Shown here in pieces: positions 546 through 20,733 of a stretch of DNA of 64,000 nucleotides. The notes under the pieces are model-generated. The model did no database searches, was not told the DNA's origin, and saw only the letters and a list, made by a program, of their open reading frames with translations. The position numbers were made by a program, and so were the translations under genes. The number at the start of each line of letters is the position of its first letter. Position 1 is the first letter of the stretch. Source of the DNA: Nanobdellota archaeon (lineage in GTDB: Archaea; Nanobdellota; Nanobdellia; Parvarchaeales; Parvarchaeaceae); NCBI GenBank assembly GCA_021818905.1, contig JAKASS010000001.1, positions 53,548 through 117,547 of the forward strand, read 5' to 3'.

Positions 546-1055
546 ATGACTGGAAACACCGAGGAATTCATATGGTACGAAGTGCTTTTCGCCCTCATAG
601 TCGCTCTTGTAGTATTCTTCATATTTTACCAGAATTTCTCGGAAGTGTTCCCTATAGGCTGCAATAATAACAACTTAGTAGAAAACCAATTCTCTCAGGC
701 ATTGTCCGGTACCCCAAATAGAGAGGAAGGCACGCCGCTTTTCAGATGCTACCTTACTAACGCGTGCTATGATCAGGCTACTGCAAATGTGACCTGCATA
801 ACTAATTGGTGCGCATACGATTATTGCATAGACGGTAAGTGTTCAAGCGCTTTCCAAACCTGTGTACAAAGTCCTACGACGAGCGTGCTTCAAAACTGTA
901 AAGTGCTTAATCCGTCAAATACCGCGGCCCTAGAAAACTGTGATCAAAGCACGATAATCGCTGACAATTCAACAGATATACAAAATTGTGACACGAGCAT
1001 ACCGACGTGTATAACCGGGGACGGCCCATCATGCTCCTCCTGTGTAGGCCAATAA
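546..1055 (+). CDS. Membrane-anchored cysteine-rich surface protein
   Basis: Unrecognised secreted protein of 169 residues. One hydrophobic helix at about residues 11-28 follows a short acidic N-terminus, so it is probably a signal anchor with the rest outside the cell. The exposed part holds 14 cysteines by my count, an even number, in closely spaced patterns such as CAYDYCIDGKC, which suggests a disulfide-stabilised ectodomain. Two N-x-S/T sequons are visible. A TATA-like ttaaattatac at 519-529 lies about 25 bases upstream of the ATG. It is the first gene of a plus-strand cluster of similar surface proteins. No catalytic motif is visible, so I assign no function. Confidence 0.75.
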   Translation: MTGNTEEFIWYEVLFALIVALVVFFIFYQNFSEVFPIGCNNNNLVENQFSQALSGTPNREEGTPLFRCYLTNACYDQATANVTCITNWCAYDYCIDGKCSSAFQTCVQSPTTSVLQNCKVLNPSNTAALENCDQSTIIADNSTDIQNCDTSIPTCITGDGPSCSSCVGQ

Positions 1056-1056
1056 T

Positions 1057-1215
1057 ATGGATAAGAAAGGAAGTGTAGAGTGGAGGATAATATGGATGAT
1101 TATAGTGATAGCCACCGCAATAGTCGCGATATTGATAGTATTGATTTTATATTACGCAAGTTCTAGCAGCGGTTCACCATTTACTTACTTTTCTGGATTG
1201 TTTGGTGGCCTTTAA
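1057..1215 (+). CDS. Small prepilin-like membrane protein (52 aa)
   Basis: A 52-codon gene starting MDKKGSVEW. It begins 1 base after the stop of the preceding gene, and its TAA shares one base with the ATG of the next gene, so it is almost certainly real. A short positive N-terminus (KKG) is followed by an acidic residue and about 22 hydrophobic residues. That is the arrangement of archaeal class III (prepilin-type) leaders, which are cleaved after the glycine. The remainder is a short Ser/Gly-rich tail of about 18 residues. It could be a tiny pilin or a membrane peptide subunit partnering the flanking surface proteins. Confidence 0.7.
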   Translation: MDKKGSVEWRIIWMIIVIATAIVAILIVLILYYASSSSGSPFTYFSGLFGGL

Positions 1216-2186
1216 TGGTAGAACAAGGCGTACTTCTTGTCCTTGTATCGCTGATTATAATAGTCATAGGCGGCGTCATACTTTTCGTCTTTAGTATCTC
1301 TTTTGCAACATCTATAGGCGCCACTGACTTCGGCGCTAAATGCTATTTCTCTTTCGTAGAATACAACGTCGTAGACTCGTTTTTGTATCCGGTCTCTTTT
1401 ATATCTTCCGCATTGGTAGGCAAGTCTCTAATAAGCGACCCGATCGCGGCTTCGCAGGTACAGGGAGCATGTACTCAAAATTCGAATGTAAATGCGCAGG
1501 ATACGTCCACTCTCGCCGAACAGATTTATACAAAAGCCGCTTCGTGTTTCAATCTTTTTCAGGGGTCTAATGCGGGTGAAGGAGCAGATATTATATATAG
1601 CGGATTAAACCAGTTGTTTGAATGTTACGCCGGTACGATACTTAACAGTGAGACTCCTGGCAGTGTTACGACTTACAATGAGCTTATAAATTATATAAAT
1701 CAAAACTACCCGAACAATGGAAATCCGCTGCAGATAGTATTCATAACCAATGGAACGGACGGCCTCGCAAATTATACGAACCCTAATGCGCCGGTAGCCA
1801 ATGGTTCTACTTATGTGATATATTATTTCGGTTATCCCAGTACTTTTTCCTTTAGCGCTTCCAAAATCACATTGAACGGGGTCTCCGGTACGGACTGCAC
1901 CCTTAACTTTAACACGCAGTGTGATTATGTCTCGCAGTTCAACGAGCCAGATATCGGTTCTGCGATATGCAATATCGATAATCCCACGGTATACAAGAAA
2001 CTAGGTTCCATAGACAATCCCGTGAGTTCGCTAAGCACGCCGAGCACGCTTTCATATGACCCAAAGGACAACGTTATAGGCGCATGTGAGGATTATGTAA
2101 TTGCTTTCTGTGGCAGATTACTTAATACCATGGTATTAAGCCAGAATAGGGTGTTTGTCTGTATAACAAACAGTGCGCTCGGTTGA
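1215..2186 (+). CDS. Membrane-anchored cysteine-containing surface protein
   Basis: Unrecognised 323-residue protein with an N-terminal hydrophobic helix (about residues 5-27) and a long Ser/Thr/Asn-rich exterior. I count 10 cysteines, an even number, and three N-x-S/T sequons. The C-terminal end, QNRVFVC followed by a few residues, resembles the end of the next gene's product (RNQIYVC). A segment with GADIIYSG and a nearby cysteine resembles GLDVLYNG in the same neighbour, so the two look like distant paralogues. Translation is coupled to the 52-aa gene by a one-base overlap. It is probably an extracellular structural or binding protein; no enzyme motif was found. Confidence 0.75.
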   Translation: MVEQGVLLVLVSLIIIVIGGVILFVFSISFATSIGATDFGAKCYFSFVEYNVVDSFLYPVSFISSALVGKSLISDPIAASQVQGACTQNSNVNAQDTSTLAEQIYTKAASCFNLFQGSNAGEGADIIYSGLNQLFECYAGTILNSETPGSVTTYNELINYINQNYPNNGNPLQIVFITNGTDGLANYTNPNAPVANGSTYVIYYFGYPSTFSFSASKITLNGVSGTDCTLNFNTQCDYVSQFNEPDIGSAICNIDNPTVYKKLGSIDNPVSSLSTPSTLSYDPKDNVIGACEDYVIAFCGRLLNTMVLSQNRVFVCITNSALG

Positions 2187-2221
2187 ACCATTATTTATAT
2201 TAAAGACAGTTTAAAATCTAT

Positions 2222-3718
2222 ATGGCTGAGACCGGTGGCGAGAATATTGTATTCCTAATACTCTTCGTCATATTCATATTCGTTATAGTACTTGTTTTTG
2301 CCTATTTCCTTCTTTTTGGTTTCGGATTTACTAATGCGACTTCGTGTTACGGCAGCTCCCAAGTCACAAATTTCTTTTATAACGACCTTTGCATAACCAA
2401 GTTCTTCTGCATAGCTACGACGCTAAATGCAATTGGCATTGGGCCGCCATCGATCGGTTGCACGCCCGCTACACAAAGTTATACGTCTAGTTCTACTACA
2501 GGTCAACTTTTTGCGGGTATAACTGACGCGCTTGGAAATTGTTGGTACCAGTATGGGGCTAATTCCGGCTTAGACGTATTGTATAACGGGCCAGGACTTT
2601 GTAGCATTGTCGGAGTTTCGTTTAACAACCAAAAAAACCTTACTTTTTATAATCTTACGCAATATCTTAAAAGCGCTGCATTCTCAAAACAGATAAGCTG
2701 TCTAAATCATACGTCTGTGCAATCGTGCGCCGATCCTCTAACTTCCTTTAATCCTAATGGATTTAGCTGCGATACCGCCTCGCCGAGCGAGTGTGAGGCT
2801 TACTCAACCGATTATTTTTCATGTGAGAGCCAGCAGGGTTATATTCCTACGTACAGCGGATATGTCCTTCGAAACATATTTCTCAATGATTCCACAAAGT
2901 ACAATATAACAACGGCCACTACTGCTGCAAATAATCTTTCTTCGTATCTTTGCGATGTTTCGCAGGGCTGCTACTTTAATAAGGCTACGCTTAGCTGCAC
3001 TAATGATACTGGCCAGTCGAATGGCTGCAGTCAGGTTTTCACCAATTTCTGTGCGGAGACATCGTATGGCTATGACAATTGCACCGCCCAATACGATGCG
3101 AATACGGGCGATTACGAAGCGCCAGTAGGCTGCACCCTTGTAGAGCCTGTAAATAACGACTCGACCGTTAATGTCTCTTATTTTGATTACCTTGCGCCCG
3201 GTGTAAACCTTATATACAACTACAAAAATAAGACCAGCGGTAAAACTGAATCGGTCGGCCCATATTCAAATGTGAGTATAAACGACGCAGAATTATACCT
3301 AGTCTATCTTAATAGCTTTTCAAATAGTGCGCTTCCACCAAACACCATCTCAATGCCACCAGAATGCGTACCGCAGACTTGGCTTAACAATTATCCGACT
3401 TCAGGGATAGAATATCAATGTACCGAAGCATTAGCGGTTTTCGGTTCGGCTACGACTGGTCTGGCTTTATCTGGCGGCCCGAGCATAGTTACTTTGGGTG
3501 GTCTAGCGGCGACTGGATATCTTTATGGCGCATGCCAGAGGAATAACCTTTGCAACCAGTATATAGATACTACCGCTACAAATGCTGCCTGGACGGCGAT
3601 ATACACGACAAGCGGGTTACAGGGGTGTATGGACTCTCTTTATGCCGGCTTACAAGAACTAGGGGGAGCTAACTTTTTAGGGAGGAATCAGATTTACGTA
3701 TGCGCAGTCGCGGCTTAA
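2222..3718 (+). CDS. Large cysteine-rich, sequon-rich surface protein
   Basis: Unrecognised 498-residue protein. A strongly hydrophobic helix at about residues 9-33 anchors a long exterior rich in Ser, Thr, Asn and Tyr. I count 24 cysteines (even) and about 13 N-x-S/T sequons, which fits a disulfide-bonded, N-glycosylated surface protein. The C-terminal RNQIYVC motif matches the preceding gene (QNRVFVC). A TATA-like atttatatta at 2192-2201 lies about 26 bases before the ATG, so it likely has its own leaderless promoter. Its end overlaps the next gene by 19 bases. Function unknown. Confidence 0.78.
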   Translation: MAETGGENIVFLILFVIFIFVIVLVFAYFLLFGFGFTNATSCYGSSQVTNFFYNDLCITKFFCIATTLNAIGIGPPSIGCTPATQSYTSSSTTGQLFAGITDALGNCWYQYGANSGLDVLYNGPGLCSIVGVSFNNQKNLTFYNLTQYLKSAAFSKQISCLNHTSVQSCADPLTSFNPNGFSCDTASPSECEAYSTDYFSCESQQGYIPTYSGYVLRNIFLNDSTKYNITTATTAANNLSSYLCDVSQGCYFNKATLSCTNDTGQSNGCSQVFTNFCAETSYGYDNCTAQYDANTGDYEAPVGCTLVEPVNNDSTVNVSYFDYLAPGVNLIYNYKNKTSGKTESVGPYSNVSINDAELYLVYLNSFSNSALPPNTISMPPECVPQTWLNNYPTSGIEYQCTEALAVFGSATTGLALSGGPSIVTLGGLAATGYLYGACQRNNLCNQYIDTTATNAAWTAIYTTSGLQGCMDSLYAGLQELGGANFLGRNQIYVCAVAA

Positions 3719-4164
3719 ACAAAAAGGGCAGTACCTCAGTAGAGAAGGTAGTGGTAATAATAATACTAGTGGCCTTCGTAGTGATAGCTTTCGTAATCTT
3801 AAGCAACGTTTTCCATTTTTCACTTCTTAGCCTTGGCAAAAGCGTGCCAACGCTTACCAGCCAGCCAGCCGATTGCGGCTTGACTATAATCAATCAGTTT
3901 AACACCAGCCAATCATGCATATACACGCTATCCGTATCGGATGGCAGCCCAGGGCTTACTTATACCCTATATAACAACGTAAGCGGCAAAATACAAAGCT
4001 ACGTCGCGGGGGCGAGCACGATAGAATGGAATGCTACGCTGACGAGGGGGCCAACGCAAAGATATTACTTGTATGTTTGCAACACGAGCGGTTCAAATGT
4101 ATCCATAGATGGGTCATTTTATTCTGCGGGCGGATCTGCAGATGTCCTTCTCCCATGCGGATAA
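3700..4164 (+). CDS. Type IV pilin-like protein with class III leader
   Basis: A 154-residue protein beginning MRSRGLNKKGSTSVEK and followed by about 20 hydrophobic residues. Cleavage after KKG would put glutamate at position +5, the classic archaeal prepilin arrangement that is processed by a FlaK/PibD/EppA-type peptidase and then packs as a filament helix. The mature domain is short and beta-like with four cysteines and five N-x-S/T sequons. It overlaps the upstream large surface protein by 19 bases, which suggests co-translation and a joint role, for example a pilin subunit or anchor carrying the cysteine-rich proteins. No assembly ATPase or platform protein is in the window. Confidence 0.75.
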   Translation: MRSRGLNKKGSTSVEKVVVIIILVAFVVIAFVILSNVFHFSLLSLGKSVPTLTSQPADCGLTIINQFNTSQSCIYTLSVSDGSPGLTYTLYNNVSGKIQSYVAGASTIEWNATLTRGPTQRYYLYVCNTSGSNVSIDGSFYSAGGSADVLLPCG

Positions 4165-4165
4165 G

Positions 4166-5695
4166 CTAAACGAAAGGGTTTAGAGTGCCATCATTTTTAA
4201 GGGTCTTAGGATTCTCTTTTATATTTTTTATAAGCTTTTTCATCTTGCTTTCTTTTCTTTTAGAGACCCAGTAATACCCCTCGTCATTAGTCCCTTCAGT
4301 TATAAGTATGAATATTTTGCCCGCATTAAATCTTCCTACCCGCCCTCTTCTTTGTATAGATCTTATACCGCTTGGGATAGTTTCGTAAAAGACCGCTAGA
4401 TCCACACCCTTTATCGACATGCCTTCCTCGCTTACGCTTGTAGAGACAAGTACGTTGTAAACTCCTGCTTCAAAGTCTTTTATTATATTAACCTGCTCCT
4501 TCTGCGAAAGGCCGCCTTTGCCTTGCCCGATGAACTTAACCGGCCTTATGCCTTTGACACGGCTTACCGAATCGTAAATTACGTCTACTGTGTCCCTATA
4601 CTGCGTGAAGACTATCGCCTTCTGATCTGTGGAAAAACCTCCAGAAAATATCTTGTTTATCTCCTCAAGCTTTGGGTGCTCAAGCCCTTCATCCAGTAAC
4701 TTCTTTGATTTTTCGTACATCCATTTTATTTCAACGGTTTTTACTAGTTCTTTGTCGGTTTTTGACGTGCCTTCCTTGATCATCTTTTCAAGAAACCTGT
4801 TGAATGCTCCTACGCTTTGCGTAGAGATTAGATTGAGTGCATGGTATAATTTCAAAAGCTTTGAAGTGATTATTATGCCTCTTATGGTATAGAAATTTCG
4901 TTTCCCAGAAAACATGCGTGCCTGCAGGCTTTTCTGCAGCATGAGTATCGTCCTTCTGTTTATCCTGTTCGGTGACGCATCCTTGAGAAGGCCAACGTTC
5001 TGAAGGGCAGCGACTTGTTCCTGTATGAATATCTTGAGATAAGAGATTATTTCCAGTATTTCATTTGGCAATTTTAATCTTATCTCCTCGACTGTTTTAG
5101 TTTTTACGTAGGGGGCTACGTCTGGATCGTCTTCTCCTCTTATTTCTACGTTAGAAATCCCGAGATTCCTGCAGATTAGACTTATCTTTTCCTGCTCCGA
5201 AGCCGGAGAAGCCGTCAACCCCAGAATCAAGGGGTGGGCAGATTTTAGCATGTATTCTTTGGCTATTTTTACGTAAGCATAATTCCCGACTGTGTGGTGC
5301 GCTTCGTCTACTATAAGCAAGCTGAAATCCGAAAAATTTATTATGCCGCGCTCTATGTCGTTCTCTACCGTTTGTGGGGTTGAGAAAGTCAGCTGTGAAC
5401 TTTCGTATACATTTTGCCTGTCGCCTTTTTTGGTTTCTCCGCTCGTCATGCCGAGCGAAACATCCATAAGACCGGAGAAAGTCTTGTAATGCTGGTTTAC
5501 AAGTGGTTTCGTAGGCGCCAAAAATAACGTCTTTGAACCCTTATATTTGCTCAGTCTGTAATCCACTACAAGTACGCTTATTACCGTCTTTCCCAAACCT
5601 GTAGGAAGCACGACGAGAGTATTGGAATCCTTTGCGGTTTCGAAGATGTTTTTCTGGTACTCGCGCTCCTCTATTTTTCCTTTTCTGATAAACAT
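4166..5695 (-). CDS. hef: Hef/FANCM-type DEAH helicase without nuclease domain
   Basis: Superfamily 2 helicase of the archaeal Hef family (Mph1/FANCM relatives), which processes stalled replication forks. Visible motifs are Q-motif-like REYQ near 11-14, Walker A LPTGLGKT at 30-37, TASPAS near 162, DEAHH at 130-134 and motif VI QRRGRVGR near 450. An insert between the RecA domains, as in Hef, spans about residues 200-320. Euryarchaeal Hef carries a C-terminal XPF-type nuclease plus helix-hairpin-helix region; this protein ends at 509 residues without it. The start codon overlaps the stop of the GINS gene by one base, so the pair forms a replication/repair operon. Confidence 0.88.
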   Translation of the reverse strand: MFIRKGKIEEREYQKNIFETAKDSNTLVVLPTGLGKTVISVLVVDYRLSKYKGSKTLFLAPTKPLVNQHYKTFSGLMDVSLGMTSGETKKGDRQNVYESSQLTFSTPQTVENDIERGIINFSDFSLLIVDEAHHTVGNYAYVKIAKEYMLKSAHPLILGLTASPASEQEKISLICRNLGISNVEIRGEDDPDVAPYVKTKTVEEIRLKLPNEILEIISYLKIFIQEQVAALQNVGLLKDASPNRINRRTILMLQKSLQARMFSGKRNFYTIRGIIITSKLLKLYHALNLISTQSVGAFNRFLEKMIKEGTSKTDKELVKTVEIKWMYEKSKKLLDEGLEHPKLEEINKIFSGGFSTDQKAIVFTQYRDTVDVIYDSVSRVKGIRPVKFIGQGKGGLSQKEQVNIIKDFEAGVYNVLVSTSVSEEGMSIKGVDLAVFYETIPSGIRSIQRRGRVGRFNAGKIFILITEGTNDEGYYWVSKRKESKMKKLIKNIKENPKTLKNDGTLNPFV

Positions 5696-6264
5696 CAGAC
5701 ACCTATAGCTTTTCCGCTCTTTATAAGAATATCGGCCACATCTCTATCTATTTCTACAACGTTCGGAAACGAGAAAGGCCCGTAGGTCTTATTGTTCTTC
5801 CACACGAACCGAGGGACGTCGGCTATAATCTTTATGACGACCCTATTTGCATTGTCTTCGGATTCGACTTTTTGCATCTCTTTTGGAGCGACTTCTTTCA
5901 CTTCCCTTATGATTTTGCTTTTATGTCCATTGACAAGCTTCAGCATATTATCGAATAATATCAGTTCTTCCGACGTAAGGTTATTTCTTGCCTGATCTAT
6001 GTTGGTCCCTTGTATGGTCATATTCGCTATCTTTCCCATCCTTGCGGTTATTATCTGGTCTAAGGTGTTTATCGCGTTCTTTATCTGTGTAGATATTTCT
6101 TCAGCCCTCTTTAGGTCATCCATTTTTTTTGCTTCTTCCAAAGACTTTTTATTGATCGCTATGTATTCTTTCATCTCTTCTAGGGTCTCATTAGTCAATT
6201 TTGTAAGCGTCCTATCTTCTTGTTCCTGTCTCCTTATGCGAATGAACTCGCTGTAAGTTATCAT
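5695..6264 (-). CDS. gins51: GINS complex subunit (Gins51/Gins15 type)
   Basis: Subunit of the archaeal GINS complex, which joins MCM and Cdc45/RecJ in the replicative CMG-like helicase. The 189-residue protein has the N-terminal alpha-helical A domain (FIRIRRQEQEDRTLTKLTNE near the start) followed by a small C-terminal B domain near 140-189. The B domain contains VPRFVWKNNKTYGPFSFPNV, the typical DVPxFV...YGPF pattern. A-then-B order is the Gins51 arrangement. It is the first gene of a pair with the Hef-like helicase, overlapping by one base. Confidence 0.87.
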   Translation of the reverse strand: MITYSEFIRIRRQEQEDRTLTKLTNETLEEMKEYIAINKKSLEEAKKMDDLKRAEEISTQIKNAINTLDQIITARMGKIANMTIQGTNIDQARNNLTSEELILFDNMLKLVNGHKSKIIREVKEVAPKEMQKVESEDNANRVVIKIIADVPRFVWKNNKTYGPFSFPNVVEIDRDVADILIKSGKAIGV

Positions 6265-6312: not shown

Positions 6313-6501
6313 TCAGCTCGTACTATTCAATCCGCCGGTGACCATATGCGCGAAGCCACCGAAAAAGTTCGATATATCCGTCACTATCGTACCCGGCCCC
6401 ACTAGAAGTATGTAAACCACTACTACCGTTATGCCTAACGCTATCGCTATGATATAATAAAGCGTGGCTTCAGTCACTCCCTTCTTATTAAGTCTCAGCA
6501 T
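6313..6501 (-). CDS. Small prepilin-like membrane protein (62 aa)
   Basis: A 62-residue protein that starts MLRLNKKGVTEATLYY, followed by about 20 hydrophobic residues and a short Gly/Ser/Thr-rich tail. The NKKG leader with a nearby acidic residue fits an archaeal class III signal peptide. It is the last of four consecutive small genes read from 6978 downwards, starting 4 bases after its neighbour's stop. It is likely a pilin-like or membrane peptide component; no enzyme features. Confidence 0.72.
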   Translation of the reverse strand: MLRLNKKGVTEATLYYIIAIALGITVVVVYILLVGPGTIVTDISNFFGGFAHMVTGGLNSTS

Positions 6502-6505
6502 ATCG

Positions 6506-6649
6506 TTATCCGAACGGGTTTGGAATGGGCGGGAATAGTTTTGCCGCCCCTCCGAAGACTATAAGGTAGAATATCACTATGACTATCCCTATTACGATTA
6601 TTATTATAAGGAGAAGCACGTAATCTGTCACGCCTTTTTTATTAAGCAT
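6506..6649 (-). CDS. Small prepilin-like membrane protein (47 aa)
   Basis: A 47-codon gene read from the reverse strand. It begins MLNKKGVTDYVLLL, continues with an unbroken run of about 20 Ile/Val/Leu residues and ends in a Pro-rich KLFPPIPNPFG. It has the same NKKGVT start as the next gene downstream (NKKGVTEA), so the two look duplicated. Its ATG at 6649 overlaps the stop of the upstream small gene by 8 bases. Class III leader by pattern. It is too short for standard gene calling, but its place in an overlapping series supports it. Confidence 0.7.
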   Translation of the reverse strand: MLNKKGVTDYVLLLIIIIVIGIVIVIFYLIVFGGAAKLFPPIPNPFG

Positions 6650-6812
6650 ATTTACCGCCGTTAATACTTGCAGCAGAGAAAAAAGAACTAAAAAGATTAG
6701 ATATCTTGTACGGAGAAAAGAATTCCAAGAATATTATTACAAGCAAAATCGCTATTATAAGAAGGATTATGTAAAGAAACGTGCTACCTTGTATAGATGC
6801 TTTCTTATCCAT
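6642..6812 (-). CDS. Small membrane protein of the prepilin-like cassette (56 aa)
   Basis: A 56-residue protein from an ATG at 6812 (MDKKASIQGSTFLY). An in-frame start further upstream would add 20 residues overlapping the previous gene and is less likely. A short KKA-containing positive start precedes a hydrophobic helix of about 20 residues (IILLIIAILLVIIFLEFF) and a tail of about 20 residues. It lacks the nearby acidic residue of a strict class III leader, so its processing is less certain than that of its neighbours. It overlaps both flanking small genes by 8 bases. Confidence 0.66.
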   Translation of the reverse strand: MDKKASIQGSTFLYIILLIIAILLVIIFLEFFSPYKISNLFSSFFSAASINGGKYA

Positions 6813-6978
6813 TGCCAAAAAGCCAGCTGAAGGAAAGCGCTTTGAATATCGAGTTCCCCAGACTTGCACCACCGCTGCTGAAATAAAGAGCTATGACTAC
6901 TCCGACAAGAAGCACGATTATCGCTATTACTATAGCTATTATTTCTGTTATCGGCATCTCTCCCTTTTTGTTTACCAT
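6805..6978 (-). CDS. Small prepilin-like membrane protein (57 aa)
   Basis: A 57-codon reverse-strand gene starting at 6978, 3 bases after the stop of the 571-residue orphan. It begins MVNKKGEMPITEIIAI, giving KKG then a glutamate before about 20 hydrophobic residues. The tail is short and Gly/Ser-rich (SSGGASLGNS). It is the first of four tiny membrane genes that overlap or abut one another, and its stop overlaps the next ATG by 8 bases. The pattern is that of an archaeal class III signal peptide. Confidence 0.7.
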   Translation of the reverse strand: MVNKKGEMPITEIIAIVIAIIVLLVGVVIALYFSSGGASLGNSIFKALSFSWLFGNG

Positions 6979-6981
6979 GAT

Positions 6982-8697
6982 CTAAAATAAAGGATTGTCA
7001 AAATTCGAAAGCGGACTCAATAATCTTTTCCTTCTCTTGAATTCCTCATAAATCAAGGAAGCGTCTTGGTTTGCTCTGAAAAGGCCTACCGCTATCGCGT
7101 CTTTCGTTCCAAGCCCCTTATACCTCCTGTGGCTTACTTCTATTTCGTATAGATCTGGGTCAAACGCCCTTTTTTCGCCGGTGCCTACTGCAAGTGACAA
7201 TGATTTGTTTATGCCGACGAGATCGTCCTTGAAAGACTGGTATATGTCGAAAAGTGCATAGTTAGAAGCCGGCTTCGCCTTGACATCTTTCTTTTCCGCC
7301 TCGGCTATATATCTATCCAGATCTTTCTTTATCACGTTCAATGAAGATACCGAGACCTGGTCCAGACTCTGAAAAACCGTTTTGTTTACGTATGTTTCTA
7401 GTGCTTTTTTGAAAAGGTACCATTCATCCAGTGTAAAGCAGAAAGGCTTTAATTTTATCCCAAGTGTTCCTGTGTACTGCGTTCTGTCCTGAGGTACCCC
7501 CTTAGGGAAGAACTGCTTCTCTGTAAAACTGAACGAAGTTTCTACCGCTGCTACGACCTTTGGACCGTGCTTCTTTAAACTTGTATACAAAAACGACCTG
7601 TTGCCTTCCCTAGGCCCTTCTGTAAGCAGCTTACCCAAAGGCGTTACTACGGAAGGCAGTTCTGGTCCTTTTACACCAAATGCTCTTTTGTACTCTACCT
7701 CGTACTCACGCCTATACATCGGTTTTGCCGCCATTAATTCTACCGAAAATTCGGCTGTCTCCATTATGTCGGGTCTTTTAGATGCATTAAGGTAGTCATT
7801 AGCGTTTGTAATCCCCTTGAGATTTATCCTGTTAAGTATGCTCAAAGATTCGGCAGCCCAGTTTTTATACATCTCATACGCGGCGGCCTGGCTCTTCAGG
7901 TATTGGAGAAGCATGTCCCTTCTGTTGCTAAGGTCTCCCTTGCTTATCTTTTTCCATTCTTCGTATTCTAAAAATCTGTTCCTAAGTATGTTCTTGTACT
8001 GCTCATTCTTTTGCATGGACTCTATGTCCTTCAGGCTATTGATAGGATAGAATACCGCCACTAGGTCTATAAAGCCGGCACCACCCTGTCCTTGCGTCGG
8101 TGCCCTTGACAATGCACTTAGACTTGCGCCGCCTTTTCTTGCATCAACGTTATCGATAAAAATCCTTTTTAACGCGAGGTCGGCTGCGCGCTTCTTTTGA
8201 GGATCGCTCGATTCTGCCAGTTTATAAAAAGAGTAGTTTCTATCAAGCTCTTTGAGCTCGTAAGTTATCGAGATTATTGATTTTACGACGGTGTTAACGC
8301 TGCCCAAAAGCTGCATTGCTCTATCTTCCAGCGCCTTTCTCTTCTCAAAAGCCATAGTCATAAGGTTAGAAAGCGCGGCTGGATCGACTGATTCCGCGGT
8401 TTTTAATTTGTCATTATACCCAAGCGCCTTTAGCTCCTGATTTATCATTTTGTATTCGGATTGGAACTGGTATGCGCCTTCTACGTCTAGCGAAAGAAAA
8501 AATCCTTCTTGGTTCCCAAGCAGACCTATATCGGGCCGGTTTATCCTCTTAGCGTATCTTAACTCTGACAGCTCCCCTCGGTAGCGACTATTCAAGCCTG
8601 CCGCCCTCAGTTTTAGCTCTTCTATCCAGTTTTTTGCCTCTCTAGGGCTTGATGCGGCTATTATTTTCTGGTATCTCCCGATCTCAGCCAAGTTCAT
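6982..8697 (-). CDS. Orphan helical protein heading the prepilin-like cassette
   Basis: A 571-residue protein that I do not recognise. It has no membrane helix or signal peptide and is rich in Lys, Glu, Leu and Ala with long helical stretches, so it is probably cytoplasmic and mostly alpha-helical. A Gly-rich break lies near 205-215 (APTQGQGGAGF). No nucleotide-binding or metal motif is visible. A TATA-like tttatatata on the reverse strand around 8720-8729 lies about 27 bases upstream of the ATG, suggesting a leaderless transcript. The four small prepilin-like genes follow directly, the first after only 3 bases, so it may serve their assembly or regulation. That is an inference from position alone. 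Confidence 0.75.
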   Translation of the reverse strand: MNLAEIGRYQKIIAASSPREAKNWIEELKLRAAGLNSRYRGELSELRYAKRINRPDIGLLGNQEGFFLSLDVEGAYQFQSEYKMINQELKALGYNDKLKTAESVDPAALSNLMTMAFEKRKALEDRAMQLLGSVNTVVKSIISITYELKELDRNYSFYKLAESSDPQKKRAADLALKRIFIDNVDARKGGASLSALSRAPTQGQGGAGFIDLVAVFYPINSLKDIESMQKNEQYKNILRNRFLEYEEWKKISKGDLSNRRDMLLQYLKSQAAAYEMYKNWAAESLSILNRINLKGITNANDYLNASKRPDIMETAEFSVELMAAKPMYRREYEVEYKRAFGVKGPELPSVVTPLGKLLTEGPREGNRSFLYTSLKKHGPKVVAAVETSFSFTEKQFFPKGVPQDRTQYTGTLGIKLKPFCFTLDEWYLFKKALETYVNKTVFQSLDQVSVSSLNVIKKDLDRYIAEAEKKDVKAKPASNYALFDIYQSFKDDLVGINKSLSLAVGTGEKRAFDPDLYEIEVSHRRYKGLGTKDAIAVGLFRANQDASLIYEEFKRRKRLLSPLSNFDNPLF

Positions 8698-8823: not shown

Positions 8824-9912
8824 ATGCATCAGACTGAAAACAATAATCCAATCGAAGCTGCGCTTAACAGACTTTTCTCGACTATAGACGCCCTATCCGC
8901 TAAAATCGACGAATTGAACGAGCGGGTGGATTACATGGGGTCATTCGTAGGTCTAGAAGTAGGCGAGGAAGGAAAAACCGAACACATAGAACCGCCAGGA
9001 CAGCTAGCTGGTTTGTCTTTTGACGTCCTTAATAAACTTCTTCCCGCAAAAGACGCCAACAGCGTAAGGTCCTACTTTTTAAGGGTTTTGAGCCTTTTTA
9101 GAAAATACATAAAAGCTATAATAGTATTCGGTAGTTCCAAGACAAAAACTGGCATGACCAGTACCTCGGATATAGACGTGGCATTCATAGTCGACGATAC
9201 CGACATCCAGAAATTTACATTGGAACAGCTTAAGGACAGACTTTTTACTAAAATGGCAGAGATTGCAAGGGATTTCTCCGATAAAATACACGCACAAGCA
9301 TATCCTCTATCCGAATTTTGGGCATCGATAATAAAACCGAATCCGGTCATTTTAACGCTTCTTAGAGACGGCGTCGCAGTGTATGACACTGGTTATTTCG
9401 TCCCGATACAGATGCTTTACAAGACGGGGAATATAATCCCGACAAAAGAATCGATAGACTCCAACATCGAAAACGCAGAGGGTCTAATAATGCTCGCGGA
9501 AAACGTGCTTACAAACAAACTTTCACTTGACCTTTACAACGCTATCGTAGCTGCTGGACAGGCTTTACTTATGGAGTACGGATACTTACCTCCGGTGCCA
9601 AAGGAAGTTGGAAAAGATCTTCTTGCGATTGCTGTAGAGAAAGAAAAAGTGCTTACAAGAGAGGATGTTGAAAGAGTGGAAGACGTTGTAAAATGGTTCA
9701 AGAAAATAGACCATGGTGAACTTAAGAGCGTAACCGGCGATGAATTCTCGAAAAAGCAAAAAGAGACAAAAGAAGTTGTCGACAAAGTTTTAGGCATAAT
9801 AGAACGGCTAAGGGAAAAGAAAGGGCTGCCAAAGCCGGCTGTAGACAAAGATTTATTAAGACCTACAGATACTAATGTTGATAATAAATACCTGAAGCCC
9901 ACACCACAATAA
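8824..9912 (+). CDS. MNT-type nucleotidyltransferase fused to a HEPN-like helical domain
   Basis: A 362-residue protein. Residues 10-40 form a short coiled coil. Residues about 95-180 hold a minimal nucleotidyltransferase domain of the pol-beta superfamily, with VFGSSKTKTGMTSTSDIDVA (101-120), the GS...DxD metal-binding core. The helical region from about 205 to 330 resembles a HEPN-type partner domain but has no clear catalytic RxxxxH. MNT and HEPN proteins usually occur as two-gene antitoxin/toxin modules in which MNT adenylylates HEPN; a single-chain version could be a regulatory enzyme. It sits 3 bases before eL35 and so may be co-transcribed with it. The nucleotidyltransferase call is firm. 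The HEPN-like call is tentative. Confidence 0.75.
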   Translation: MHQTENNNPIEAALNRLFSTIDALSAKIDELNERVDYMGSFVGLEVGEEGKTEHIEPPGQLAGLSFDVLNKLLPAKDANSVRSYFLRVLSLFRKYIKAIIVFGSSKTKTGMTSTSDIDVAFIVDDTDIQKFTLEQLKDRLFTKMAEIARDFSDKIHAQAYPLSEFWASIIKPNPVILTLLRDGVAVYDTGYFVPIQMLYKTGNIIPTKESIDSNIENAEGLIMLAENVLTNKLSLDLYNAIVAAGQALLMEYGYLPPVPKEVGKDLLAIAVEKEKVLTREDVERVEDVVKWFKKIDHGELKSVTGDEFSKKQKETKEVVDKVLGIIERLREKKGLPKPAVDKDLLRPTDTNVDNKYLKPTPQ

Positions 9913-10170: not shown

Positions 10171-11204
10171 ATTTTTGTATTCCTCTGCTAATTTCTTGAA
10201 GTCCTGATCGTATCTAAAACCTTTTTCGTTAAGTACCGTTCTCGTACCAAAAGAATCAATCCTTTTCTCCCTCACCGCTAAATACGATGCAAGTTCTGTA
10301 GTGGTGTAATAGGATACGCTGTCCTTTTCCTGCTTAAGCATGCTAAGGTATTTTTTAATTTCTTCGTCCTTAGCCAGGACAAGCATCCTGCTTACAAGGC
10401 CCCTATCAAATAGTCTGTCGAGCCATAATGGCCCTATCTCAATGTTTTTTGATCCGCAGAACGAACATGTCTCAGAAAACTTCATGACCCTGTTAGGACA
10501 CTTAGAACACTGGTAAATGTAACCTATGCTTCTTGTCGTATTCGCCTTCGACACGTGAAGATAAATCCTAACGTAATGGCGCCTAACATCAAAGAACATC
10601 GGTTTAACTGACCTCTCGTAAAGGTTCGCTATCTCTTCTGCGCGTTTTATCAATATCCTTAAACCTATCTCATTGAAATAACTCGTCTTCAGCGACCTCG
10701 CGCCATATTTCAACAAACATGCTTTTTTCGCTTTGCCATAAAGCGCAGCCGTGTCTGTTGCAGTAAGCGCTAGAAGTCCGCCGCGCTTCACTTTTGGCAT
10801 CGCTTGCAGTGCATATCTTATAGGCGAACCAAATGGGTCTATGTCAACGTAGTCATATCCCTCTTGGGCAGAGTAAATGTCCGATGCATTTAATGAAGTA
10901 ACCGTTATCTTAGCTTTGATTTTACTCCTGTTCTTTAATACGTTTTTCTTTATTACCTTACTGGTGTTTAGGTCGTTTATTGCGAACGACTTAAAAGCCT
11001 TGGTTTCGGCAACTAGCCTCAAGCTCCGTATACCACTGCCCCCAAAAAGATCGATTCCTTTAAGATCGTGTGCGCCGAGCGCATTGAAAAGTAAAACGTT
11101 TAGGTCTCTATCAAAATTTCTGGATGGATTAAAAAAACCTCAGAGTCCCTAGTTTGTTTATTCTCAGCGTAAAAATTTATGGCCCCTTCCTGGAATAACT
11201 CCAT
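10162..11204 (-). pseudogene. trm1: tRNA (guanine-26 N2)-dimethyltransferase, single frameshift
   Basis: Trm1 methylates G26 of tRNA using S-adenosylmethionine. The long frame (TTG at 11022 to the stop at 10162) shows the DPFGSP catalytic motif, a CxxC...CxxC zinc site (CSKC, CSFC) and the C-terminal domain. It lacks the beginning of the family. Upstream, the same frame continues FFNPSRNFDRDLNVLLFNAL and IDLFGGSGIRSLRLVAE, which are the missing Trm1 motifs, but no start precedes them. A second frame from ATG 11204 reads MELFQEGAINFYAEN and ends exactly at EVF, where the family reads EVFYNP. The frames join at a run of seven A at 11131-11137. One more base in that run would restore a 347-residue protein. 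A real decay mutation, a sequence error and a slippery site are all possible. Confidence 0.85.
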
Positions 11205-11211
11205 GTAAAAT

Positions 11212-11703
11212 TCACTTATATGGTGCTGATAAACGTTTCAAAGACTCTTCTGTCGTTGGAATGCCGTATAACGCCCTTTCTTCGTCTGTAGTTGCTGGAT
11301 CAATTGGCGTGGCTAACTCAAACTTGCCATCTTTATTTCTGACAAACTGAGTGCCCAACTTTTGAGGCTTGCCATCGTGTACAAATATCCTATCATAAGA
11401 CGCCGCATAAAGCCATCTCACCATTTGTAAATCTTTGTCGCCGTTATCGAGTCTCGCAATGGCATACCTACAAAGTTCATTTGCTGCTATGACGTATTTG
11501 TTTTCTATGTCGTGATGTAGTAGGATTGCTACGTGAAATGCGTCTCGTGGATCTATTAACTCGTTGTCTGTGCACAGCTTCGGGGCTGTGTCTGATATTC
11601 TTTTGCACTCCTGACAGCCCCCTTGAGTCTTTGCCGCCCGGTCCTTCCAGTGGGTGTTGTAAGAGCTTAGAAATGTCTCTAACCTCGAGATCAGGCCCGT
11701 CAT
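11212..11703 (-). CDS. Conserved protein resembling DUF6624
   Basis: A 163-residue soluble protein. The middle and C-terminus (LHHDIENKYVIAANELCRYA, then DRIFVHDGKPQKLGTQF and PIDPATTDEERALYGIP) follow the pattern of the DUF6624 family, in which a conserved histidine pair, a DRI...PQ.YGTQ segment and a final R..GL are typical. Function of that family is not established to my knowledge. An N-terminal CQEC motif is present. It starts 4 bases after the TFB stop, so the two are likely co-transcribed. Confidence 0.65.
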   Translation of the reverse strand: MTGLISRLETFLSSYNTHWKDRAAKTQGGCQECKRISDTAPKLCTDNELIDPRDAFHVAILLHHDIENKYVIAANELCRYAIARLDNGDKDLQMVRWLYAASYDRIFVHDGKPQKLGTQFVRNKDGKFELATPIDPATTDEERALYGIPTTEESLKRLSAPYK

Positions 11704-12784: not shown

Positions 12785-12801
12785 CAAACCAGGTGAAAAA
12801 C

Positions 12802-13734
12802 ATGGAAAAGAAGGACTGCCTCCAACGAAGATCTGAGACGGTCATAGCTAAAATAGATTGCGTTTTGCATAAAGAACCGCAAAGACTTACCGTGATGAAT
12901 AAAGGAAAGGAAGGAAGACCATTCCTTTATTCGGACGACCTGATAATGGCGATAAGCTTCTTCAGGTTCTATTTCTGCCCAAAACTAAGGCAGACTGAAG
13001 CCCTGGTTCGGAGGATCTACGGCTACTCTCCCGACCATACCACTATAGACAGAAGGTTATCCACGATAAGACTCGAATGGACGGTCACTAAAAGCGAAAG
13101 GAAAGGCAGGCTCCTTGCTATAGACGCCACGGGGATATCGGTCTCCGATCGCGGAGGATACATGGACGCCAGATACGGTTCAAAGCCGAAGTTCCACAAG
13201 CTGCATGCGGTAGTAGATGTGGAGGACATGATAGTGGTAGCCTTCAGGCTGACTTCCGAACACGTGGCCGACAACAGGAAGTTTCTTCCCGCCATCAGGG
13301 AAGCCGCAAGAAGGGGCGATACCGTCTATGCCGACGGAGCTTATGATGCGAAGGAGAACTTCTCTTTTCTTGAGAAGAGAGGGATAAGGTCTGGGATAAA
13401 GATAAGACAGACCGCCTCTCCCACCGCCCCGGGCTGTCTTCCGAGGAAGAAGGCGGTGATGGAGCAGTTCTCCTTCCTGCCCCATTCCCACTTAGAAAAG
13501 ATACATCCGTTGGCGGAGAAAGGCGTTATGTTCTTCAATGAGACTGAAAGGATGAAATACTGGCAGCAGAAATGGAAGGACAAGGTAGGATACGGGAGAA
13601 GATGGCTCGTCGAATCCTTCTTCTCCGCCTTCAAACGGGTATACGGGAGCCACGCTTCTTCCCGCGTATGGAAGAAGGTGAAGAACGAGATGACCCTGAA
13701 GCTGCTGTTGTATAACGAATTGCTGGAGGCCTGA
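12802..13734 (+). CDS. IS5/IS4-like DDE transposase of element A
   Basis: A transposase of about 310 residues with an RNase H-like DDE core: LLAIDATGIS carries the first Asp, DTVYADGAYDAKE the second, and WLVESFFSAFKR the Glu of the typical Y...R...E motif. The N-terminus is a helical DNA-binding region. I take ATG 12802 because AGGTG lies six bases before it; a GTG at 12793 is also in frame. Residues about 168-268 are nearly identical to the middle of transposase B while the rest is only distantly alike, so the gene is mosaic. The frame is intact and the enzyme may be active. Confidence 0.88.
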   Translation: MEKKDCLQRRSETVIAKIDCVLHKEPQRLTVMNKGKEGRPFLYSDDLIMAISFFRFYFCPKLRQTEALVRRIYGYSPDHTTIDRRLSTIRLEWTVTKSERKGRLLAIDATGISVSDRGGYMDARYGSKPKFHKLHAVVDVEDMIVVAFRLTSEHVADNRKFLPAIREAARRGDTVYADGAYDAKENFSFLEKRGIRSGIKIRQTASPTAPGCLPRKKAVMEQFSFLPHSHLEKIHPLAEKGVMFFNETERMKYWQQKWKDKVGYGRRWLVESFFSAFKRVYGSHASSRVWKKVKNEMTLKLLLYNELLEA

Positions 13735-13814
13735 CGCAGACGCGTCGACGGCGCAAAGAAAGGAGGATCGCTATGATGATTTATAAGGTCATCACTGAGT
13801 TATGCAACGGAATA

Positions 13815-13823
13815 ATTTTTGTG
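13815..13823 (+). repeat. Second copy of target-site repeat ATTTTTGTG
   Basis: Lies between IS A and IS B. It serves as the right repeat of A and the left repeat of B. The last G may instead be the first base of B's inverted repeat, leaving an 8-bp duplication for B. Confidence 0.85.
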
Positions 13824-13876
13824 AGGCTGTTGCATAATTCGATTGCAGAAAGCTCAGGATAAGCGATAAATCAGAC

Positions 13877-13921
13877 AAATGCCTCCTGTTTTTTATTGAA
13901 GAAACAAAAAAGGAGGCATTT
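13877..13921 (+). promoter_or_regulatory. Hairpin sequestering the transposase B ribosome site
   Basis: AAATGCCTCC (13877-13886) is perfectly complementary to GGAGGCATTT (13912-13921), with a 25-base A/T-rich loop. The 3' arm contains GGAGG placed 5 bases before the ATG at 13922, so the folded RNA would hide the Shine-Dalgarno site. Similar masking limits transposase synthesis from read-through RNA in bacterial IS elements. Confidence 0.65.
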
Positions 13922-14875
13922 ATGGATAAACAAGCATCGACGGGATTTAAAGACTTAGTACAGAGGAAACTTCAGTCCGTAGTGGACGAACTGAAGAAAG
14001 TAGTCGGAAACGGCGCCATAGGACTCTTAAAGACGGACAAGGGAAAGATAGGAAGGCCGTATAGATATTCTGAGACGGAGATCGTCAATGCAAGCGCTTT
14101 CAAGTCCCTCATGAGACAGGGATCCAGGCAGACGGCAGTCCTGATAAAGGGCCTGGCCGGAAGCTGCGCTTCTTATTCGCAGCTTTGCAGAAGGCTTGCT
14201 TCTGCAGGGATAAAATGGCTCATAAACGGGACTAAGAGAAAGGGAAGGTATCTAGCCATCGACGGCACCGGGATATCTACACACTACCGAGGGGACTACA
14301 GAAGCAGCAAATATGACATAAGACAGCCGTTCTACAAGTTCCATGCGCTGGAGGACGCGGAGACCGGGGAGCCGGTGAACTACAGGCTCACCTCCGATCG
14401 CATAGGCGACAACGGGAAGTTCCTTGCCATTGTCAGGGAAGCCGCAAGAAGGGGCGACATCGTCTACGCCGACGGAGCCTACGATGCGAAGGATAACTTC
14501 TCTTTCCTGGAAAAGAGAGGGATAAGGTCTGGGATAAAGATAAGACAGACCGCTTCTCCCACTGCTCCAGGCTGTCTTCCGAGGAAGAAAGCAGTGATGG
14601 AGCAGTTCAGCCTGCTTCCCCACGGTCATCTTGAGAGGAAGCATCCTCTGGCGGAGAAAGGAAGGATGTTCTTCAGCGAGACGGAAAGGATGAAGTACTG
14701 GCAGCAGAGATGGAAGGATAAGGTAGGATACGGGAGAAGGACTTCCGTGGAGAGGTCCTATTCTACCTTCAAGGCATTGTTCGGAGGATATGCCTCTTCT
14801 AGAAAATGGAAGAGCCTGAGAAAGGAGATGCTTATCAAGTGCCTGACGTACAATAAGCTTCTCGAGATAAGGTAA
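13922..14875 (+). CDS. IS5/IS4-like DDE transposase of element B
   Basis: A 317-residue DDE transposase. LAIDGTGIS holds the first Asp, DIVYADGAYDAKD the second, and RTSVERSYSTFKALFGG the Glu. The start at ATG 13922 has an ideal GGAGG. The block from EAARRGD to VGYGRR (about residues 172-275) is almost identical to transposase A, while the N-terminal third and last 45 residues differ strongly, which points to recombination or gene conversion between related elements. The frame is intact. Confidence 0.88.
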   Translation: MDKQASTGFKDLVQRKLQSVVDELKKVVGNGAIGLLKTDKGKIGRPYRYSETEIVNASAFKSLMRQGSRQTAVLIKGLAGSCASYSQLCRRLASAGIKWLINGTKRKGRYLAIDGTGISTHYRGDYRSSKYDIRQPFYKFHALEDAETGEPVNYRLTSDRIGDNGKFLAIVREAARRGDIVYADGAYDAKDNFSFLEKRGIRSGIKIRQTASPTAPGCLPRKKAVMEQFSLLPHGHLERKHPLAEKGRMFFSETERMKYWQQRWKDKVGYGRRTSVERSYSTFKALFGGYASSRKWKSLRKEMLIKCLTYNKLLEIR

Positions 14876-19965: not shown

Positions 19966-20040
19966 GTTTTTAGCAAAATGACGTATTTGTGTTATTACTT
20001 TAAGTCTTAAATCTTTACAATTAATAAGTATAAGATGCAC

Positions 20041-20733
20041 ATGAATAAAAAGGCGCAATTTATTACTGAATATATAATTGTAATTGGTATCGCACTCAGC
20101 ATAATAGCTGTATTCCTGGTCTATGTACTAGTTTATTATTCTGGCTATTCAAATTCCTCTAACTCTAACCAGATATCGACTATAACAAATTCTATTGTAC
20201 AGGAAGCCAATTATGTATTCTCTGAAGGAGTTGGCTCAAAGACTTCTTTTACACTGGGTTTCCCCGATCTACAGGTAATAAACTCATTTTTCTGTGGAGA
20301 TTATATAAAAGTCACTTCCTCACAATATTCTTCGGTGAGCCGGGCAGACGAGGAGCTTGAAGGACTGCTGCCTCTGAAACAGGGAACTTACGTTATGTAT
20401 GCAAGGTACAACCAGACCGGTATAGTACAGATAGGACTAGATTCGGGTGTTTCTTACATAAATTATACTTATTCGTATGACTCGAGCAAAGACCTTTTAT
20501 TTTACAATCTTACCTTCTTCGATAGCCAGTATCTTATCTCTAGCGGCGTAGCCGGTATAGTCCCTTATAATATAACCGTCTTTTCTGTGAACGGCGTTTA
20601 TCTAAACAGCAGCACCTCATTGAGCGTGGACGATTTTGCATACGGGGAATTGACTCTAAAGCCGACACCGTCAGAAGCTATAATAGATATTTTTGTAAAT
20701 GGTGCCGTTGCGCCCTCCTGCTTTTATCCATAA
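20041..20733 (+). CDS. Secreted protein with canonical class III signal peptide
   Basis: A 230-residue protein starting MNKKAQFITEYIIVIGIALS. Cleavage after KKA leaves Q at +1 and E-Y at +5/+6, the best match in the window to the archaeal class III (archaellin/pilin) signal peptide pattern QxxxEY, followed by a hydrophobic helix. The mature part is beta-rich, Ser/Tyr/Asn-rich and includes N-x-S/T sequons and two cysteines. ATG 20041 is preferred; an extra ATG two codons earlier is in frame. It is probably a pilin-like or surface subunit and stands alone, away from the other two pilin-like clusters. Confidence 0.78.
   Translation: MNKKAQFITEYIIVIGIALSIIAVFLVYVLVYYSGYSNSSNSNQISTITNSIVQEANYVFSEGVGSKTSFTLGFPDLQVINSFFCGDYIKVTSSQYSSVSRADEELEGLLPLKQGTYVMYARYNQTGIVQIGLDSGVSYINYTYSYDSSKDLLFYNLTFFDSQYLISSGVAGIVPYNITVFSVNGVYLNSSTSLSVDDFAYGELTLKPTPSEAIIDIFVNGAVAPSCFYP

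Follow-up and report, generated by a model that had tools for sequence, protein, structure and literature searches.

A conserved cassette of tiny class III prepilin-like genes in Parvarchaeaceae, predicted subunits of a Tad-like pilus

Gene content of the locus

The window, the whole 64,000-nt stretch of DNA that we analysed, covers positions 53548-117547 of contig C4 in a genome of 0.94 Mb and 25 contigs. Four tiny genes follow one another on its minus strand, with 8-nt overlaps between g1 and g2 and between g2 and g3 and a 4-nt gap between g3 and g4, just as an earlier sequence-only reading had described. Two neighbours outside the pilus system flank this cassette, and a cluster on the plus strand faces it (a slash marks the end of the predicted leader):

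546-1055, plus strand: 169-aa protein with an N-terminal transmembrane (TM) segment and 14 Cys; predicted operon start of the same system
1057-1215, plus strand: p0, 52 aa, MDKKG/SVEWRIIWMI...FTYFSGLFGGL; a fifth tiny class III prepilin-like protein
1215-2186, plus strand: 323-aa protein with an N-terminal TM segment and a Cys-bearing ectodomain; predicted minor (tip) pilin-like subunit, whose position is kept in outgroup operons
2222-3718, plus strand: 498-aa protein with an N-terminal helix and an ectodomain; predicted tip or adhesin subunit
3700-4164, plus strand: 154-aa class III prepilin-like protein, NKKG/STSVE(+5)KVVVIIIL
5695-6264, minus strand: GINS51 (Pfam Gins51_C, 1.2e-7); neighbour, outside the pilus system
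6313-6501, minus strand: g4, 62 aa, MLRLNKKG/VTEATLYYI...VGPGT...; tiny class III prepilin-like protein
6506-6649, minus strand: g3, 47 aa, MLNKKG/VTDYVLLLI...IPNPFG; tiny class III prepilin-like protein
6642-6812, minus strand: g2, 56 aa from ATG, MDKKA/SIQGSTFLYIILL...LEFFSPYK...; tiny class III prepilin-like protein
6805-6978, minus strand: g1, 57 aa, MVNKKG/EMPITEIIAI...ALSFSWLFGNG; tiny class III prepilin-like protein
6982-8697, minus strand: 571-aa DPANN protein; neighbour, outside the pilus system, adjoining the cassette within the genus only

The g2 protein thus begins MDKKASIQ. Earlier, two of the four ORFs had been called too short for usual gene callers, which was overstated, as the ORFs measure 144-189 nt; the lower length limit of Prodigal is 90 nt. 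The predicted mature lengths of g1, g2, g3 and g4 are 51, 51, 41 and 54 aa, and beyond the hydrophobic stretch only about 4-18 residues are retained, so that the mature forms, like that of p0 (47 aa), are nearly all one hydrophobic helix. An ORF scan of the whole 0.94-Mb genome found 13 ORFs with a leader, a TM segment and a mature length of 70 aa or less, and four of them are g1-g4.

Profile comparisons (g2-g4 and g3-g4) showed that g2, g3 and g4 are mutually similar with their leaders in register, and most of their members have Pro at mature position +28/29. Similarity between such short TM helices points weakly to common descent, and the case is strengthened because the leader register is shared. 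The g1 protein, with a conserved SFSWLFG motif at its C-terminus, is more distant from the other three. None of g1-g4 has a Pfam, NCBIfam or PHROGs match over the cut-off. We also considered a viral origin and rejected it, since g1-g4, p0 and the 498-aa protein have no PHROGs match with E <0.06.

The plus-strand cluster at 546-4164, which faces the cassette in this genus, encodes mostly Cys-rich ectodomain proteins. The 498-aa ectodomain carries 24 Cys and 13 N-glycosylation sequons; its predicted model, which is weak (mean pLDDT 64.5, pTM 0.50), has no PDB match. In the outgroups (G030, G028 and G023) the order p0-323-498-154-g1-g2-g3-g4 lies on one strand, with the 154-aa gene immediately upstream of g1, and is followed by GINS51. 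The outgroups thus carry these genes as one operon, from which it follows that the cassette belongs to a set of nine genes that became separated in this lineage.

In almost all family genomes inspected, even those with the cassette at another location, the gene immediately after g4 is GINS51, a replication gene stably hitched to the putative pilus operon. The 571-aa gene belongs to a different cluster that is conserved throughout the class and is therefore a secondary neighbour of the cassette. A functional link between the two was rejected because the class-wide neighbourhood of this gene lacks tiny TM genes and the outgroup cassettes lie elsewhere. Across the class, its homologues often stand beside a similar gene of ~260-300 aa, proteins of ~190 aa and ~500-600 aa and a membrane protein. 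Two copies, 79% and 66% identical to the one in the window, occur in one congener assembly (G012:C94 and G012:C41), which possibly contains mixed strains. Further along, a nucleotidyltransferase-like protein at 8824-9912 (PF18765 1.4e-5, just below the cut-off) adjoins the 571-aa gene and may correspond to the DPANN-specific MNT-HEPN cluster listed in PMC6393860. Two adjacent ORFs at 12793-14875 (313 and 317 aa) share long near-identical stretches and look transposase-like by eye.

Conservation, leaders and leader loss in g4

The cassette was found, with its gene order kept, in all 32 family genomes searched (Parvarchaeota MAGs), 28 of the same genus and four from two other genera. It has the same neighbours in 26 congeneric genomes, counting the present one, and is located elsewhere in the genome in the two remaining congeners and in the four genomes of the other genera. 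We then calculated dN/dS by the Nei-Gojobori method for ten pairs per gene. The values for g1-g4 ranged from 0.01 to 0.20 in the informative pairs, that is, where dS can be estimated, and were zero in pairs without amino acid change. Lack of conservation in relatives and lack of coding constraint had been named beforehand as observations that would speak against the cassette, and neither was made: g1-g4 are real genes under purifying selection. The short length of the ORFs and their lack of family-database matches are what chance ORFs without function would display, and the presence in 32/32 genomes together with the dN/dS values refutes this explanation, which we regard as practically excluded. 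In one congener (G007; L012 reverse complement 3713-3899) a spacer of 185 nt separates g3 and g4, where the others have a few bases at most.

Next, we examined the leaders. In each of g1-g4 in this window, a basic residue, then Gly/Ala, and then an N-terminal hydrophobic helix are present, as in a class III leader; the KK(G/A) start described previously stands, and it fits this leader in all four genes rather than in three. Position -1 is Gly/Ala in 31/31 distinct family members for each of g1, g2 and g3, and in 15/15 of the leader-bearing g4. Position -2 is Lys/Arg in 31, 26 and 30 of the 31 members of g1, g2 and g3, respectively, the last count including one g3 row (L005) that was read by eye as NKKG. 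An invariant -1 with a laxer -2 is the pattern that would be expected if processing maintains the leader. In the outgroup G028 the leader consists of only three residues, Met-Lys/Arg-Gly, in all four genes. Leaders of three or four residues are reported to be substrates of the Sulfolobus peptidase PibD, and FlaK to depend critically on the -1 Gly (PMC4187195, PMC4307647). Even so, a short, Lys-rich and Gly-bearing N-terminus could partly reflect topology and not cleavage. Glu+5 is absent from g1-g4. Acidic residues are found instead at +6 in g1, at +2/+3 in g3 and at +3 in g4, with none fixed in g2, and the +1 residue of g1 is Gln/Glu, Gln+1 being usual only in this gene.

The g4 gene in the window still has its leader. 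In 16 other congeners it is leaderless and starts with Met-Glu, where Met is mature +2 and Glu is the conserved +3. On the tree of the 571-aa neighbour this loss is a single event (support 97/95), and dN/dS indicates that the leaderless g4 is still under purifying selection. An upstream start that would extend the gene was rejected, since the sequence ahead of g4 holds no KKG-like stretch and an in-frame stop precedes g4 by one or two codons in L011, L012 and L015. In this clade g4 could be made directly in a near-mature form, or could stay as a membrane-embedded part. A leaderless gene in 16 genomes is odd for an obligately processed pilin and counts against the pilin reading. It introduces the alternative that the tiny proteins never polymerise but remain in the membrane for good, as components of the pilus machine or of a static adhesion complex, where they would anchor or seal the base or form bundles with the TM helices of the large ectodomain proteins. 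In favour of this, g4 keeps its helix and Glu+3 in the 16-genome clade after loss of the leader, and a single operon interleaves the five near-bare helices with single-pass ectodomain proteins. However, anchoring alone does not need the -1 Gly/Ala, which is invariant in g1-g3 over 31 genomes even where the leader has three residues, and the register from cleavage site to Pro+28 is common to g2-g4. We therefore consider a purely membrane-embedded role rather unlikely.

The predicted pilus machine

All parts of a pilus machine are encoded in this genome. The ATPase (747 aa, FlaI/CpaF-like; C17:30579-32822; PF00437 8.5e-18) is 46% identical to that of G114 over about 750 aa and matches the archaeal secretion ATPase 2oap, CpaF and FlaI. 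The adjoining gene (C17:28483-30600) encodes a double-repeat PilC/GspF-like platform of 705 aa, about 30% identical to that of G114 (E 5e-108); the platform gene is present in 270/280 class genomes. The 705-aa protein has no Pfam match over the cut-off, and T2SSF was matched weakly below it (0.017). In its AlphaFold model (mean pLDDT 75.3, 10 sequences), the six best PDB matches were cytoplasmic domains of PilC, OutF and EpsF, with Z of 9.7-11.4 over 102-116 residues, and the next, unrelated match had Z 5.8. A prepilin peptidase (A24) lies at C7:355-1197 (PF01478 1.4e-13, over the cut-off), with the Asp motifs SDIKTREVP and WAGGDVKL recognised by eye, and adjoins three further leader-bearing genes.

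Other pilin-like genes were also seen: a QGLPIN pilin in the same genome (C13:307-666), two KKG/KRG-AISLGL prepilin-like genes of 59 and 181 aa (G000:C13:10203-10382 and 10899-11444) that resemble tiny members of the class arrays, and in the window, at 20035-20733, a class III prepilin-like gene of 232 aa (NKKA/QFITEYIIV).

The cassette in this genome is unlinked to the ATPase and platform genes, whereas a homologous operon in G053, from another family of the same class, is linked to them. The order there is ATPase (T2SSE, 751 aa), platform (690 aa), 169-aa homologue (E 1.9e-9), a tiny gene (44 aa), a 287-aa gene, 498-aa homologue (E 3.6e-20), g1 homologue (51 aa, E 1.7e-7), g3/g4 homologue (61 aa, E 2.2e-6) and QGLPLN pilins, and then further tiny genes. 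The 169-aa homologue adjoins the platform gene on its 3' side in G053, G056 and G043. This synteny of the ATPase and platform in other families, the conservation of the cassette and the peptidase of the genome support the previous description of a real, prepilin-like cassette.

To see how general the arrangement is, we considered 20 loci picked by the platform gene alone. At least one tiny leader-helix gene follows the platform gene on the same strand in 16 of them, and in two of the other four the contig ends just past the platform gene. When five loci found through matches to tiny genes, a biased subset, are included, 24 loci have 53 tiny leader ORFs on the array strand and 2 on the opposite strand. 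This strand count leaves out four further loci: two whose prepilin genes are on the opposite strand or distant from the platform gene, L167, set aside although one tiny gene is present, and L192, without an ATPase match or leader ORFs. Some of the tiny proteins in the class arrays have a mature form of just 30-31 residues.

A second, canonical type IV pilus (T4P) set is located on C2, with a 506-aa FlaI-like ATPase and two T2SSF proteins. This set is intact and neither machine is linked to the cassette in this genome, so that the four genes might serve the C2 set and not the 747/705-aa pair. Yet the homologous operon lies directly 3' of a 747/705-type pair in other families, and tiny-helix arrays generally follow such a pair; synteny in other families thus points to the 747/705-aa machine, and service to the C2 set seems to us quite improbable. 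The same gene orders bear on the idea that the four ORFs have nothing to do with pilins and encode small membrane proteins that belong with the GINS51/helicase or 571-aa genes, their leaders marking only an N-in topology. GINS51 is indeed 3' of g4 in nearly every family genome inspected, and both genes are immediate neighbours of the cassette here. However, in outgroups the 571-aa gene does not adjoin the cassette, its class-wide neighbourhood is without tiny TM genes, and the genes upstream of the cassette in outgroups encode ectodomain proteins whose homologues follow the pilus ATPase and platform. The gene orders of G053, G028 and G030 largely refute this idea, to which we attach very little weight.

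Comparison with known filaments and proposed function

The best explanation, which we hold to be likely, is that g1-g4 and p0 encode Flp-like pilins made of a helix only, which serve as subunits of a type IV/Tad-like pilus or short endopilus in DPANN archaea. Several features recall Tad/Flp (type IVc) pili: the helix-only pilin of about 45-50 residues, to which g1-g4 and p0 conform, the CpaF/TadA-type ATPase, and the large minor pilins, which in the Myxococcus Kil system form tips with associated small Flp minor pilins (PMC12075869). In contrast to Tad/Flp, there are several different tiny pilins per operon here, with short archaeal class III leaders and a single fused double-repeat platform; the acidic residue is not at +5, the Glu+5-Tyr+6 pair is absent, and g4 is leaderless in one clade. 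The best match to Flp families was Flp1_like at 0.04, below the cut-off and for the g1 of a relative only. Because there is no Glu+5 and no Flp match over the cut-off, we class g1-g4 as proteins that may work like Flp pilins, not as Flp members.

Two statements of the sequence-only reading do not hold against this background. The subunits are not far shorter than known pilins, nor would a filament of near-bare helices be new: the mature Tad pilin of Caulobacter (PilA) has 45 residues, one helix and no globular domain, and its all-helix filament has been solved (PMC11067988), and the pilins of M. maripaludis (MMP1685 and MMP1283; DUF361 family), which include the major and an essential minor pilin, have 54-63 aa when mature (PMC3875500, PMC4187195). 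The latter are also very small archaeal pilins, and their genes may lie far from those of the ATPase and platform (PMC3875500, PMC4187195). They differ in having both Gln+1 and Glu+5, whereas here Gln+1 is usual only in g1 and Glu+5 occurs in none. We do not assign g1-g4 to DUF361, as they have no Pfam match over the cut-off and g1, with Gln/Glu+1, has its Glu at +6.

Makarova et al. (2019, PMC6393860, Fig. 2A) described DPANN genomic islands that encode FlaI, TadC and dark-matter proteins with signal peptides, which they predicted to be diverse pilins. These islands are loci of the same kind as the present ones, in which a pilus ATPase and TadC are accompanied by numerous uncharacterised leader-bearing proteins. 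The text of that paper does not draw attention to the tiny subunits made of a helix only, to how they are conserved or to the loss of a leader. With archaeal T4P and the archaellum (FlaI/FlaJ, UpsE/UpsF, PibD) the system shares the class III leader, the FlaI-type ATPase, the FlaJ/PilC-type platform and the A24 peptidase, but its mature tiny subunits leave no room for a globular domain. Membership is proposed solely in the broad type IV filament sense. Within the open-licence literature, we found no previous account of an operon with several different near-bare helices, or of a pilin-like gene whose leader was lost while its mature register was kept; the variety of helix-only subunits in each operon and the leaderless g4 look new.

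We propose that the C7 prepilin peptidase would remove leaders of 3-8 residues on the cytoplasmic side, and that the 747-aa ATPase and 705-aa platform would extract the mature helices from the membrane to build a thin filament or short endopilus. Bare helices would form the shaft or base, and the Cys-rich 169, 323, 498 and 154-aa products the exposed tip, which probably contacts an archaeal host. Cleavage, polymerisation, the choice of major subunit, tip location and host contact are inferred. A bolder version, which we offer only tentatively, is that throughout DPANN the filament core is built of four or five different near-bare helices in place of one repeated pilin, that disulfide-rich heads are confined to the tip, and that g4, translated from the mature N-terminus, has dispensed with processing by the prepilin peptidase and is a naturally leaderless pilin.

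DPANN archaea in culture grow attached to other archaea, and their mode of contact is a main open question. The loci described here define a short, testable list of subunits, among them tiny genes that are easily dropped from annotation, for a candidate pilus-type machine present in nearly all class genomes examined. In addition, the loss of the leader from g4 offers a natural test of whether a pilin-like helix can function without prepilin processing.
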